Source: Nocardioides astragali
GTDB taxonomy: Bacteria; Actinomycetota; Actinomycetes; Propionibacteriales; Nocardioidaceae
Direction: 5' to 3'
Assembly: GCF_024436375.1 (NCBI RefSeq)
Contig: NZ_JAFMZM010000007.1
Coordinates: 192,731 to 256,730, forward strand
Length of the DNA: 64,000 nt
A program made the translations under genes and the position numbers. Every line of letters begins with the position of its first letter. Positions within the stretch are counted from its first letter, which is position 1. Below, piece by piece: positions 17,188 through 21,078 of this stretch. The notes beneath the pieces are model-generated. The model did not search any database and was not told the DNA's origin. It saw only the letters and a list, made by a program, of their open reading frames with translations.

Positions 17188-18234
17188 GTGTACAGACCGG
17201 CCTATGCCCTTCTCGTGGGAGTCGCTGCCATCATGGGCGCGCTGGCTCTGACGGCCGCGTTCGTGCTCGACCGCCCGCTCGTCGACCCCGAGGGCTTCCT
17301 CGGCCCGTCGTGGCTGAGGCTGCCGCTGCTCGTGCTCGGCGCCTTCCTGCTCGACCTGCTGCCCCGCACCCTGTGGGCCTCGAAGATGAAGCCCGCGCTG
17401 ATGCCGGAGCTGGTGCGAGAGCGGATCCGCAGCCACTGGGACCGGGAGCGGGTCATCCTGGTGGTGCTGGGCCTGGTCTCCTTCTACATCACCTACGTCT
17501 GCTACCGGAACCTCAAGTCGTTCCTGCCCTTCATCATGGGCGAGGACAAGTACGACCGCGAGCTGCACCTCATCGACCGGGCGCTGATGTTCGGTCACGA
17601 GCCGGCGACGATCCTGCACACCGTCCTCGGCACCGGGATCTCCGCGCACTTCCTCTCCACGATCTACCTGTGGTTCCTGCCGCTGGTGCCGCTGGCGCTC
17701 GCGGCGTGGCTGGTGTGGTCGCGCAACATCACCTTCGGCTACTGGTTCGCCACCTCGCAGTGCCTCGCCTGGGCGCTCGGCACGGCGTCCTACTACGCGC
17801 TGCCGACCCTCGGCCCCGGCTTCCAGTACAGCTACCTCTACACCGACCTCGCCACCACCGGCTCGACCGCCTTGATGGAGTCCCTGTCCTACGGACGGTG
17901 GGGGGTGCTACGCAACGGCGCCGAGGGCTCGGTGCAGTCAGTGGCCGGCTTTGCGTCCCTGCACGTCGCGATCACCCTGCTCGTGGCGCTGATGGTGCAG
18001 TACACCCTCCGCAACCGGGTCCTGCACATCATCTTCTGGGCGAACTTCGCGATCACCGTCGTGGCCACCCTCTACTTCGGCTGGCACTACATCGCCGACG
18101 ATCTCGCCGGGGTGGTCATCGCCCTGTTCTCGTTCTGGCTCGGTGGTCTCGCGAGCGGGCAGAAGTTCGACAGGCACGGGCTGGCGTCCCACCCCACCTC
18201 CACGACTTCCCAGGTGCCCGTCGAGGTCGACTGA
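17188..18234 (+). CDS. PAP2-superfamily integral membrane protein (Aur1/Ipt1-like)
   Basis: A 348-residue membrane protein with seven or eight hydrophobic helices. The PAP2 active-site motifs are visible: YALPTLGPGFQYS near residue 205, the catalytic His in GFASLHVAITL near 255, and the His/Asp pair in GWHYIADDLAGV near 300. Such proteins dephosphorylate or transfer phospho-head groups on membrane lipids; actinobacterial relatives are often grouped with inositol phosphoryl transferases. The start GTG at 17188 leads directly into the first membrane helix. It lies 21 bp after thiQ and may be transcribed with it, though a functional link to thiamine is not evident. Confidence 0.85.
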   Translation: MYRPAYALLVGVAAIMGALALTAAFVLDRPLVDPEGFLGPSWLRLPLLVLGAFLLDLLPRTLWASKMKPALMPELVRERIRSHWDRERVILVVLGLVSFYITYVCYRNLKSFLPFIMGEDKYDRELHLIDRALMFGHEPATILHTVLGTGISAHFLSTIYLWFLPLVPLALAAWLVWSRNITFGYWFATSQCLAWALGTASYYALPTLGPGFQYSYLYTDLATTGSTALMESLSYGRWGVLRNGAEGSVQSVAGFASLHVAITLLVALMVQYTLRNRVLHIIFWANFAITVVATLYFGWHYIADDLAGVVIALFSFWLGGLASGQKFDRHGLASHPTSTTSQVPVEVD

Positions 18235-18260
18235 CCGTCGTACGGGGTCGCCCAACAGAG

Positions 18261-18334
18261 TCCCCGGATATCCGGTGACTTTCCTGCTTTGTAGGCAAAG
18301 CATCGGCTCCAAAGCAGGAGACTTGGGTGCAAAG
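18261..18334. repeat. left arm of 74-nt inverted repeat flanking the DUF559 gene
   Basis: The arm starts with TCCCCGGATATCCGG, contains a hairpin (CCTGCTTTG at 18283-18291 with CAAAGCAGG at 18310-18318, loop 18 nt) and ends GGGTGCAAAG. Its reverse complement recurs at 19373-19446 with no gaps. The stem differs between arms by paired changes that keep base pairing. It lies between two convergent genes and may also act as a terminator. Confidence 0.85.
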
Positions 18335-18338
18335 GGAG

Positions 18339-19286
18339 TCACTTCGACCGCGCGGCGAGCACTCCACGGATCCGGGCAGCGAGGATCTCTGGCCTCGCCA
18401 GGTCGGCCCAGGTCGCACGAAGGCACGTCCAGCCCGTGAGCTGGCACACCAGTCTCTCGCGCTCCTTCTCGCGCATCAGGTACTCCTCGAGGGACTCCCC
18501 GTCCTTGCGGTAGCGCTCGTACTTGATCTTGCCGTCGATCTCGAGGAAGGTCGCCAGCTCGGGCCATGCGAAGTCGAGACGCGCCACGAGGTTTCCCCAC
18601 TCGTCGCGCACCTCCCACTGCGGCTCGGGGCGCGGCAGTCCCTGCTTGTACGACAGGTAGGCGAAGCGATCCTCCGCTACCGACTCCAGTCGCGGATCGG
18701 CGAGCCGTAGCACGAGGTCAGCGGTGAGGCTCCCCGGCCAGCACTGGTGCTCCTCGACGGTCTGGGCAAACTCGGCGACGGTCATGGCACCCGCGTGCAG
18801 GAGTCGGTTCACCGCCACGAGTGACGCTTCCACCCCGGCGATGGTCGTCACCTCGAACGCCGAGCGCGCGGCCTTGCTGATGCGGACGCCGTTCACGACC
18901 TCGATGTCCGTCTCGCCCAGGACGCCACGATGGGGGATCCAGTCGGCACTCCGCCTGCCGGCACGCTCGGGGAGCTCGCGCGTGGTGTGTGCGACGTCGA
19001 GCGGAACGCCCCAGACCGGCACGCGGCGTTCGACGATCGAGGACACGTGGGTCAACGCCGTCGACGGGTGTGCCCGCGCCAGGACCGCGCGGCCCAGGAG
19101 CCTGTGCCGATCCTCGACGGAGAGGGACTCCCACACGTCGTACGGCACGTAGGCGCCGTACCGGATGCGGTGGAGCACCCGGGCACGTACGAGGCGAGCG
19201 ATCTGGTTGTCGGTCAGGCCCTCGGCCAGCAGGTCCCCTCGCAGGCGGACCAGGCCGTGGAGGTCAGTGTTGGTGTCATCGTGCAT
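18339..19286 (-). CDS. AbiEi-antitoxin-domain / DUF559 nuclease-fold protein
   Basis: A 315-residue protein in two parts. The N-terminal 60 residues (GLVRLRGDLLAEGLTDNQIARLVRAR, read in two pieces, then RIRYGAYVPYDVW) are the winged-helix AbiEi antitoxin-type domain. The C-terminal 110 residues resemble DUF559, a Vsr/PD-(D/E)xK-like fold: ARLDFAWPELATFLEIDGK gives the Asp, Glu-x-Asp and Lys spacing expected of the metal site. No AbiEii toxin gene is present, so it is not a classic toxin-antitoxin pair. Start ATG 19286 is chosen over an upstream GTG-rich extension to 19391. The gene alone is enclosed by 74-nt inverted repeats, its stop codon 5 bp from the left arm. Confidence 0.85.
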   Translation of the reverse strand: MHDDTNTDLHGLVRLRGDLLAEGLTDNQIARLVRARVLHRIRYGAYVPYDVWESLSVEDRHRLLGRAVLARAHPSTALTHVSSIVERRVPVWGVPLDVAHTTRELPERAGRRSADWIPHRGVLGETDIEVVNGVRISKAARSAFEVTTIAGVEASLVAVNRLLHAGAMTVAEFAQTVEEHQCWPGSLTADLVLRLADPRLESVAEDRFAYLSYKQGLPRPEPQWEVRDEWGNLVARLDFAWPELATFLEIDGKIKYERYRKDGESLEEYLMREKERERLVCQLTGWTCLRATWADLARPEILAARIRGVLAARSK

Positions 19287-19372
19287 GTTGGCGATGTCCC
19301 CGCTGCGCCTGCGCCCTACCCTCCCGGCACGCAGCCTGTGGACAACCGGGCTGTGAGCCCGCCGAAGCCAAC

Positions 19373-19446
19373 CTTTGCACCCGAGTCTCACGCTTTGGAG
19401 GTGAGATCTCGGCTACTAAGCGTGAGGGTCCCCGGATATCCGGGGA
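19373..19446. repeat. right arm of 74-nt inverted repeat flanking the DUF559 gene
   Basis: Read on the minus strand it begins TCCCCGGATATCCGG, has the stem CACGCTTAG with CAAAGCGTG, and ends GGGTGCAAAG, matching the left arm position for position over 74 nt. On this side the opening GATATC palindrome extends to a perfect 26-bp palindrome at 19425-19450. No flanking direct repeat of a target site is visible outside the two arms. Confidence 0.85.
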
Positions 19447-19561
19447 CCCTTCGCCCCATCCTGCGCGAATGACAGTCTTGTAGTTCGTCAAGCCGACACG
19501 CCGATGCAAAGTGAAAAAGTTGAGGAAAGTGTTCCCGGTGTGACGAAAGTTCACTAGCGTG

Positions 19562-19620: not shown

Positions 19621-21078
19621 GTGCTGTTCGCTCCACCGCTCGACCCCGCACCGGTGCCACGTCGTACGACGTCGCGCTGGGCGTCGGCGCTCGTGCTCGT
19701 CGCCGGACTGGCGCTGGGGGGACATGGCGTGGCGTTCGCGGACGACCACGACGGGAGTGACGTCCCCAGCGAGGCTGACATCGCCGCGGCCGAGAAGCAG
19801 GCGGCGGACAAGGGCCGTGACGTGGCGGACGTGCAGGCCGACCTGATCCGGGCCAACCTCGCCCTCGAGTCGGCGGGTGACACCGCGGCCCAGGCTGCCG
19901 AGGCCTACAACGGAGCCCGTTGGCGGGCCGAGGAGGCGCGCAAGGAGGCCACCCAGGCCGAGGCCGCGGCCGAGGAGGCCCGGGAGGACGTCGAGGCGCA
20001 GCGCGAGCTCTACGCCGACACCGTCGTGCGCTCCTACGAGGAGGCCTCACAGGTCCAGGGCCTCAGCGCCGTCGTCGACGCCGACGGCATCGAGTCCCTC
20101 ATCGACCGCAGCGTGAGCATGGGCAACACCTCCGACGCGCTGGACAGCCAGTACGACGCCTTCACGGCCGCCTCCGCGGTCGCCGACGTCACCGCCAGCA
20201 CGGCCGCCCAGGCGTCCGAGCGAGCCGCCGCGGCCGAGCTGGAGGCCGAGCAGGCGCGCGACGCGGCCGCTGCAGCCCAGGCCGACGCCGGCACCCAGGC
20301 GCAGCGGATCTCGTCGACCAAGGCCGACTTGATCGCCGAGCTCGCCGAGCTCGAGGGCATCAGCGTCCGGCTCGCCGAGAAGCGCCAGACCGCTCTCGAG
20401 GAGGCGGCCGCCGCCGCTGCTGCCGCGGCAGCACAGGCCGAGGCGGAGGCCCAGGCCCTCGCCGAGCAGCAGGCGCAGGCCCTCGCCGAGCAGCAGGCGC
20501 AGGCCCTCGCCGAGCAGCAGTCGACGCCGACGCCCACGCCGACCAGCAAGCCGACTCCCAGCGCGACGCCGATCCCCACGCCGACGCCGACGCCGACGCC
20601 GTCGCCGGTCCCCACGCCGACGCCGACGCCGACCCCCACCCCGACTCCGGCCCCGACGCCGACCCCCACCCCGACCCCCACCCCGACGCCCAGCCCCACC
20701 CCGACGGCACCGTCGGGCGACGCGTCTGCGGCGATCGCGTTCGCGCAGGCGCAGATCGGCAAGCCCTACCAGTACGGCGCCGCCGGTCCCGATGCGTGGG
20801 ACTGCTCCGGACTCACGTCCGCGGCGTGGGCACAAGGCGGCAAGTACCTCCCGCACTACTCGGTCGCGCAGTACACCCAGTCATCGAGGCTCAGCGTCAG
20901 CCAGCTGGCTCCCGGCGACCTCGTCTTCTGGGGCTCGTCGAGCAGTCCGAGCTCGATCTACCACGTCGCGATCTACATCGGTGGCGGGCAGATCATCCAC
21001 GCCCCACGCACCGGCCGGAACGTCAGCCAGGAGTCGATGTACTACTGGCGCGCGCCCAACTTCTTCGCGCGCCCCTGA
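19621..21078 (+). CDS. secreted NlpC/P60 (C40) peptidoglycan endopeptidase with coiled coil and PT-rich linker
   Basis: A 485-residue exported cell-wall hydrolase. Residues 1-40 are a signal peptide with a hydrophobic core ([18 protein letters not shown]). Residues 50-300 are an Ala/Glu-rich coiled coil as in RipA- and PcsB-like hydrolases, ending with three identical QALAEQQA repeats. Residues 301-360 are a Pro/Thr linker that probably spans the wall. The catalytic C40 domain fills the last 120 residues, with Cys in [14 protein letters not shown], His in [13 protein letters not shown] and a third polar residue near IIHAP. It should cut the stem peptide of peptidoglycan. GTG 19621 directly follows a structured leader. 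Confidence 0.93.
20452..20520 (+). repeat. 24-bp in-frame tandem repeats in the NlpC/P60 coiled coil
   Basis: Nearly three exact copies of a 24-bp unit encode (QALAEQQA)n at the end of the coiled coil. A GC-rich run of CCNACNCC units coding for Pro-Thr follows at about 20521-20708. Both stretches are likely to vary in length between strains. Confidence 0.85.

Follow-up and report, generated by a model that had tools for sequence, protein, structure and literature searches.

Within the window, a stretch of 64,000 nt from Nocardioides astragali, a gene for a nuclease-like protein is enclosed, as the only gene, by an inverted pair of 79-nt elements, each made of two hairpins and a tail. The architecture of this locus, its conservation, the dispersal of the element and its co-occurrence with the gene were all observed directly in the genomes compared. 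We consider it likely that the nuclease gene and its elements constitute a REPtron-like pair of nuclease and repeat that is built around an unrelated enzyme, in which the protein would bind and cleave the element and the element would be mobile. A broader reading, which we also favor, if with slightly less assurance, is that such pairs are REP-like replicators of a second class, which evolved independently. A cognate nuclease of the winged-helix/Vsr-fold type, not an HUH transposase, would then maintain the dispersed two-hairpin elements and spread them across Actinomycetes, and enzyme and element would coevolve as gene-specific pairs.

Architecture of the locus

The two arms are 79 nt long each, 77% complementary to one another and separated by 1036 nt (Table 1). 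They form the longest inverted pair between positions 17800 and 19900. An earlier note on this DNA had described an ungapped alignment of the arms over 74 nt, which was borne out, the ungapped pair extending to the full 79 nt. The sequence TCCCCGGATATCCGG is present in both arms, and both end near GGGTGCAAAG. The outer end of each arm is a short palindromic hairpin (H1), which is followed by a longer imperfect hairpin (H2) and then by a tail. The compensatory changes between the left and right stems that the note had pointed out were found as stated, and the right-arm stem additionally contains one unpaired A/A position.

Table 1. Features of the nuclease locus. Positions refer to the window. 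Both arms were among those used to build the covariance model R1, from which the bit scores derive; A2 is the alignment of 20 arms.
Feature	Positions	Strand	Remarks
Left arm	18257..18335	+	79 nt; downstream of nuclease gene, 3 nt past stop codon; R1 match 75.5 bits
Left arm hairpin 1 (H1)	18260..18279	+	near-palindrome GTCCCCGGATATCCGGTGAC; A2 columns 4-23
Left arm hairpin 2 (H2)	18282..18319	+	A2 columns 26-63
Left arm tail TTGGGTGCAAAG	18323..18334	+	A2 columns 67-78; like inner 3' half of relatives' H2
Right arm	19372..19450	-	79 nt; 85 nt upstream of gene start; inverted relative to left arm; R1 match 85.8 bits
Right arm H1	19428..19447	-	perfect palindrome
Right arm H2	19388..19425	-	from aligned arms
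Right arm tail TCGGGTGCAAAG	19373..19384	-	A2 columns 67-78
Nuclease gene	18339..19286	-	315 aa; AbiEi-like winged helix and Vsr/I-Bth0305I-fold PD-(D/E)XK domain
PAP2-family gene, flanking	17188..18234	+	context; retained in relatives with or without nuclease unit
NlpC/P60-family gene, flanking	19621..21078	+	context

Local alignment of one flank of the gene with the reverse complement of the other gave a score of 69, whereas the maximum for 950 random spans of 960 nt from the same window was 35. When folded as DNA, the window arms are more stable than their dinucleotide shuffles (z from -3.6 to -7.7); for the right arm on the minus strand, the tail takes part in an alternative pairing in the lowest-energy fold. 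The displayed flanks of the locus are consistent with the absence of a target-site duplication.

A separate palindrome around GAACTACAT..ATGTAGTTC lies upstream of the NlpC/P60 gene at window positions 19467-19487, where it is degenerate. The same place is occupied by this palindrome in L008-L016 and L255, with or without the nuclease unit, and it is perhaps an operator.

The nuclease-like protein

The gene is the only one inside the arms and encodes 315 residues, as had been claimed. The fold assignment made at the time, an AbiEi-type winged helix together with a Vsr-like nuclease fold, also held when it was compared with profile matches of family members and with the predicted structure. Structure comparison of the C-terminal domain (residues 202-315) gave a Z of 12.0 over 97 residues for the catalytic domain of the homing endonuclease I-Bth0305I and a Z of 10.1 over 107 residues for Vsr. 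The predicted structure of the window protein is of middling confidence (pLDDT 70.5), and residues 68-128 are poor. The top Foldseek match of the whole model is an AbiEi antitoxin with a weak E of 0.017, and none of the Foldseek E-values for this model is significant when taken alone.

AbiEi_4 of Pfam is matched by 15 of the 23 family members examined, and the PADLOC AbiEi models are matched by 22 of them, the match of the window protein being weak (E 0.004). DUF559 (PF04480) is matched by a single member (E 0.00099) and not by the window protein. Taken alone, the window protein has no match in Pfam or NCBIfam, and none of the 23 members matches an NCBIfam model.

Nine residues, E205, D238, E249, D251, K255, E273, R276, R290 and W293, are identical in all 41 proteins of an alignment from which L023 and L043 were excluded. 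The first five are also identical in all 23 sequences of alignment A4, from which L023 was excluded because of a frame error. Judging by the motif, E205, D238, E249, D251 and K255 are probably catalytic, and since they are invariant in 41 out of 41 proteins, the presumed active site has been retained. An AbiEii nucleotidyltransferase toxin gene does not adjoin the window locus, where the neighbors are the PAP2 and NlpC/P60 genes.

Both hairpins vary in a compensatory manner

Alignment A2 is almost gap-free over its 79 columns. In its 20 arms, 92.5% of the H1 cells are paired, 13 of the 16 H2 pairs have changed on both sides, and the structure of the whole arm contains 55 doubly changed cells as compared to 25 in shuffled alignments. 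A second alignment, A5, holds 49 dispersed copies, which are asymmetric 79-nt copies fetched from five genomes and a subset of all copies. In A5, H1 is paired in 97.4% of the cells; for the structure as a whole this value is 86.7%, as opposed to 32-51% when the structure is slid along the alignment, and there are 133 doubly changed cells against 67 in shuffles. The structure was built without these copies, but the model used to find them includes it, and this favors pairing. Symmetric copies (L137-L139, L152, L153, L155 and L160) were left out of A5, as were L140, which belongs to another family, L141 and L154. The pattern of double changes shows that both hairpins are maintained by compensatory change.

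The tail repeats the H2 motif at p<0.05 in 11 of 40 loci, the window locus having a p of 0.115; as a universal feature the tail repeat was rejected on this count. Pairing of the tail with the 5' strand of H2 was likewise considered, with 67.9% of the cells paired and covariation not above that of shuffles, and the tail was kept as a recurring motif only.

Inverted arms accompany the gene family

Inverted arms are found at 72 of the 80 unique family loci with usable flanks, the window included, so the bracketing of such genes by inverted pairs, which the earlier note had seen at one locus, extends to the family. Three more loci have direct arms only. By rank, inverted arms are present at 51 of 52 loci in the genus, 8 of 8 in the same family, 5 of 9 in the same order (plus two direct), 8 of 8 in the same class and none of three other-genus loci (plus one direct). 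The loci are the top-scoring matches of each search and were not drawn at random; of the 43 unique loci in the first flank set, 30 came from a DNA search whose query included the arms, and protein searches supplied all others. After a first look, the score threshold was set to 42; at this value, none of the 950 random spans, which were drawn from the window only, passes. Excluded were L218 and L221, whose flanks are short, a duplicate protein, which was skipped, and, in one flank test, L037 as a duplicate of L007.

Arms were not detected next to the family gene at L041, L043, L191 and L208, and L203 has only a pair below the threshold. At L042, L202 and L207 the threshold is passed in direct orientation only. 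The direct and inverted scores are 164 vs 78 at L039, 104 vs 23 at L202 and 85 vs 41 at L207.

The arms are specific to their own locus and gene. When arms of different loci were combined, only 84 of 1806 mismatched pairs reached the threshold, and the three family genes of the window genome each have different arms. The two arms of one locus are mutual nearest relatives in 6 of 20 cases in the R1 clade. A general rule to this effect was dropped; the low number is due to sister-species orthologues often being closer.

These controls bear on the possibility that the repeats are spread by some other enzyme, a RAYT or another transposase, and that the nuclease gene is simply a frequent landing site. 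REP-like dispersed hairpins are known to associate with RAYTs (PMC2817692). However, landing on both sides of the gene by chance is excluded by the random spans. Furthermore, the HUH/Y1 tyrosine transposase of the REPtron (Y1_Tnp, PF01797) has no Pfam match in the window protein and is absent from 19 of the 20 genomes searched, the exception being G115 with nine matches. Hence, a RAYT cannot explain the repeats in general, and we regard this explanation as extremely improbable.

Dispersed copies of the element

The arms were turned into a covariance model, R1, which was searched in 98 genomes of the genus. Strong matches (best E below 1e-20) are present in exactly the 10 genomes that carry the syntenic gene, and the best match outside of these has an E of 5.3e-14; the hypergeometric value for this co-occurrence ignores phylogeny. 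Places with at least 57 bits were counted by eye in seven of the ten genomes, with opposite-strand matches at the same palindrome merged. Their numbers, followed in brackets by the count without the gene's own arms, are 2 (0) in the window genome (G000), 12 (10) in G012, 11 (9) in G022, 18 (16) in G030, 35 (33) in G071, 18 (16) in G089 and 19 (17) in G084.

The earlier note had likened the arms to REP elements, a view that fits neither arms confined to this locus nor arms that are widespread without a link to the gene. Both alternatives are ruled out, the former by further copies in all but one of the ten genomes that carry the syntenic gene and the latter by the restriction of strong matches to the ten gene-bearing genomes and by the inverted arms at 72 of 80 loci. 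The scattered solo arms that it had envisaged in related Nocardioides genomes were found with the covariance model, although none of them in the window genome. Together, the frequency of inverted arms, the dispersed copies and the co-occurrence with the gene support the REP/RAYT-like layout with an unrelated enzyme that it had proposed.

The copies that were read are solo arms and not full units of gene and arms, and the asymmetric copies fetched have a common length of 79 nt. Symmetric H1-H2-H1' forms are represented by L137-L139, L152, L153, L155 and L160. Among the six copies read in G071, H2 has a mean similarity of 94%, which is also the level at which one gene arm matches these copies. 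Gene arms have their closest counterparts among the dispersed copies of the same genome in 5 of 10 cases only, since repeats are shared between close species. Closely spaced pairs or triplets, direct or inverted, were seen at G071:C2:1093605 and 1093781, at G243:C1:4321316 and 4321418, and at G132:C1:2139510-2139880, and are BIME-like. In G071, the regions C1:1669-2747 and C2:4505283-4506361 at two contig ends are identical over 1079 nt, which is probably an assembly overlap; the element in it was counted once.

The window genome has no R1 copy beyond the two gene arms, apart from one bare H1 palindrome. This solo palindrome, TCCCCGGATATCCGGGGA (L006:3752-3769, G000:C8:325751), is without H2 or tail and is possibly a decayed element; we take the gene preceding it to resemble miaB. 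The arms of the two paralogues in the same genome recur at about 11 (L039) and about 8 (L038) further places, as counted by eye.

A query made of eleven arm families from ten genomes gave 5 to 93 matches per genome when run on the same ten (E<=1e-3, both strands). Among the matches listed, each one lies on the arm segment of the genome concerned, apart from overhangs reaching over the query joints by up to about 35 nt, and copies outside the gene's own arms are present in nine of the ten genomes, while G144 has its own two arms only. Dispersed H1-H2-tail elements also occur in G059 (L054, L272, L276 and L280) and G087 (L066, L273, L277 and L281), and yet neither genome has a family gene at E<=1e-20. 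The gene is either lost or divergent in these two genomes.

With crude gene calls, 37 of 56 copies were placed between genes as compared to 96 of 1004 random places. The former number is probably an underestimate because such calls over-extend the 5' ends of genes. The intergenic copies lie between convergent genes in 16 cases, between tandem genes in 16 and between divergent genes in 5.

This distribution is relevant for two readings in which the element is not a replicator. The protein could be an AbiEi-like repressor that regulates its own gene, with the arms as operators, the dispersed copies as a regulon or nucleoid sites, and the nuclease domain serving another purpose, e.g. defense. Family members do match AbiEi models, and AbiEi antitoxins are described as binding to inverted repeats within the promoter from which they are expressed (PMC3985639). 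Nevertheless, the gene has an arm on either side, one being directly past the stop codon, an operator does not need two covarying hairpins, divergent genes flank only the 5 intergenic copies counted above, and the presumed catalytic residues are invariant in the 41 proteins. We regard the repressor explanation as unlikely. Alternatively, the arms might be bidirectional terminators or mRNA-stabilizing hairpins that repeat by chance, given that hairpins adjoin stop codons and that convergent genes account for 16 of the 37 intergenic copies. The fixed length of 79 nt, the conserved unpaired tail, the genome-specific sequence families and the gene-specific pairing of two arms speak against this, as does the lack of any match at the Rfam gathering score for the four loci searched, making it very improbable. 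For these four loci, an Rfam search at E up to 1 returned two microRNA-family matches on a palindromic element, which are far below the gathering scores and were taken as chance.

Gain and loss in the genus

The syntenic unit is present in 10 of the 98 genus genomes, 90 of which have a completeness of 90% or more and a contamination of 5% or less. In the nine genomes other than that of the window, the gene is 67-73% identical, both arms are inverted around it, and the neighbors are the PAP2 and NlpC/P60 genes. The nuclease gene, with a mean identity of 70.4%, is more diverged than its PAP2 neighbor (89.0%), and it is no more diverged than the NlpC neighbor (70.6%, from partial alignments). The other 42 fetched family loci, which comprise relatives in other genomes, the two paralogues of the window genome and some loci fetched twice, have no PAP2 or NlpC neighbors in the fetched DNA. 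The family therefore occupies many places in the genus. In the ten genomes, however, the nuclease gene stays at one locus and does not itself look mobile.

In eight genomes the ABC-PAP2-NlpC neighborhood exists without the nuclease gene. The comparison of occupied and empty sites suggested by the earlier note thus succeeded in part: such gene-less syntenic loci exist, and the R1 arm is absent from the gap in the three that were displayed, but one of these gaps is not empty. It belongs to G087 (L254) and holds, between the PAP2 and NlpC/P60 genes, a solo two-hairpin element of another family that is like the other elements of G087.

These loci are of importance for a further explanation, namely that the gene and its arms move as a whole, as a classical insertion sequence or homing element would. 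Inverted ends combined with a nuclease, the fold similar to that of a homing endonuclease, the eight syntenic loci without the gene and the many places occupied by family members would all suit such an element. Against it, the orthologous gene is fixed at one locus in 10 genomes, the dispersed copies read are solo arms, and the three family genes of the window genome bear different arms. Moreover, searches of 72,556 plasmid and 50,697 phage records gave no match. As the gene stays put in ten genomes and is not matched on plasmids or phages, a whole-unit insertion sequence is decidedly unlikely, and transposition of the whole unit was rejected as having no support.

In the PAP2 tree, the gene-less G017 groups with G084, G089 and G030, all of which have the unit, with a support of 87/94, which is moderate and below the tree tool's own mark for a firm grouping. 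The label "occupied" needs two changes on this tree. The nested position of G017 among occupied genomes suggests that it lost the unit. G017 has four weak R1 matches in three places (best E 5e-7), as compared to 19 strong places in its sister G084, and one of these, which consists of H1 and a few more bases, is likely a truncated relic. Being a single event in a genome with 9% contamination, this co-loss of gene and elements is supporting rather than decisive.

Individual copies are also present or absent between close species. The query comprised 21 loci whose partner regions were guessed from collinearity, did not distinguish insertion from deletion, and led to seven displayed sites, of which three are simple (L149/L174, L161/L176 and L122/L178, the last also missing about 60 nt beyond the element). 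The remaining displayed sites show further intergenic changes. At the divergence of these sites, neither a target-site duplication nor a target sequence can be read.

Proposed mechanism

We propose the following explanation for the nuclease-repeat pair. The AbiEi-type winged helix would recognize a motif of about 11 nt that makes up both H2 strands and is clearly repeated by the tail in some families. Nicking or cutting of the DNA at the element would be the task of the PD-(D/E)XK domain, perhaps when the element is extruded as a hairpin or cruciform, and repair or strand transfer might then spread the element or convert its copies. The elements would thus depend on the enzyme as non-autonomous passengers, and the gene would be kept because it maintains them.

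REPs and REPINs have long been puzzling components of bacterial genomes, and the enzyme class connected with them in the literature consulted is the RAYT tyrosine transposase. If our explanation is true, the arrangement of a static gene for an enzyme enclosed by its own scattered hairpins evolves repeatedly, convergently with RAYT. It would also assign a role to a large set of AbiEi/DUF559-type genes whose annotation is poor and account for one class of actinobacterial repeats. Many natural pairs of enzyme and element are available for tests of hairpin recognition. In the open-licence PMC literature, which does not include preprints, a link between DUF559-type genes and inverted repeats was not found.

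Comparison with known systems

Short non-autonomous copies that share their ends with an enzyme-coding unit are characteristic of MITEs and of the terminal inverted repeats of insertion sequences, and the elements described here resemble them in this respect. However, no mobile full-length copies were seen, and it is the arm alone that is dispersed, not an internally deleted unit.

Vsr is an endonuclease and I-Bth0305I is a homing endonuclease. The C-terminal domain of the window protein shares its fold with Vsr and with the catalytic domain of I-Bth0305I (Z 10.1 and 12.0, respectively), but its active site is D...ExD..K and dispersed repeats are associated with it. The N-terminal winged helix, with AbiEi_4 matched in 15 of 23 members, is similar to that of the AbiEi antitoxin of the AbiE type IV toxin-antitoxin system, which binds inverted repeats (PMC3985639). 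Unlike that antitoxin, the protein has a C-terminal nuclease domain, and at the window locus there is no adjacent toxin gene, the gene standing alone between the arms.

The closest resemblance is to the REPtron. RAYT genes are described as being invariably accompanied by two inverted REPs, as coevolving with REPs and as conditioning REP abundance (PMC2817692). As in a REPtron, one gene lies between two inverted palindromic repeats (at 72 of 80 loci), the cognate repeats are dispersed between genes (R1 in the window genome excepted), and repeats and gene are mutually specific and co-occur. The enzyme of the REPtron is an HUH Y1 transposase, whereas the one described here combines an AbiEi winged helix with a Vsr-fold PD-(D/E)XK domain. 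The elements also differ, being 79 nt long with two hairpins and a tail, and the system is seen here in the taxonomic class of the window. Because the defining enzyme is absent, the system is not a REPtron by membership, and it is filed as a new class of nuclease-associated repeat, whose composite symmetric H1-H2-H1' forms are reminiscent of REPINs.
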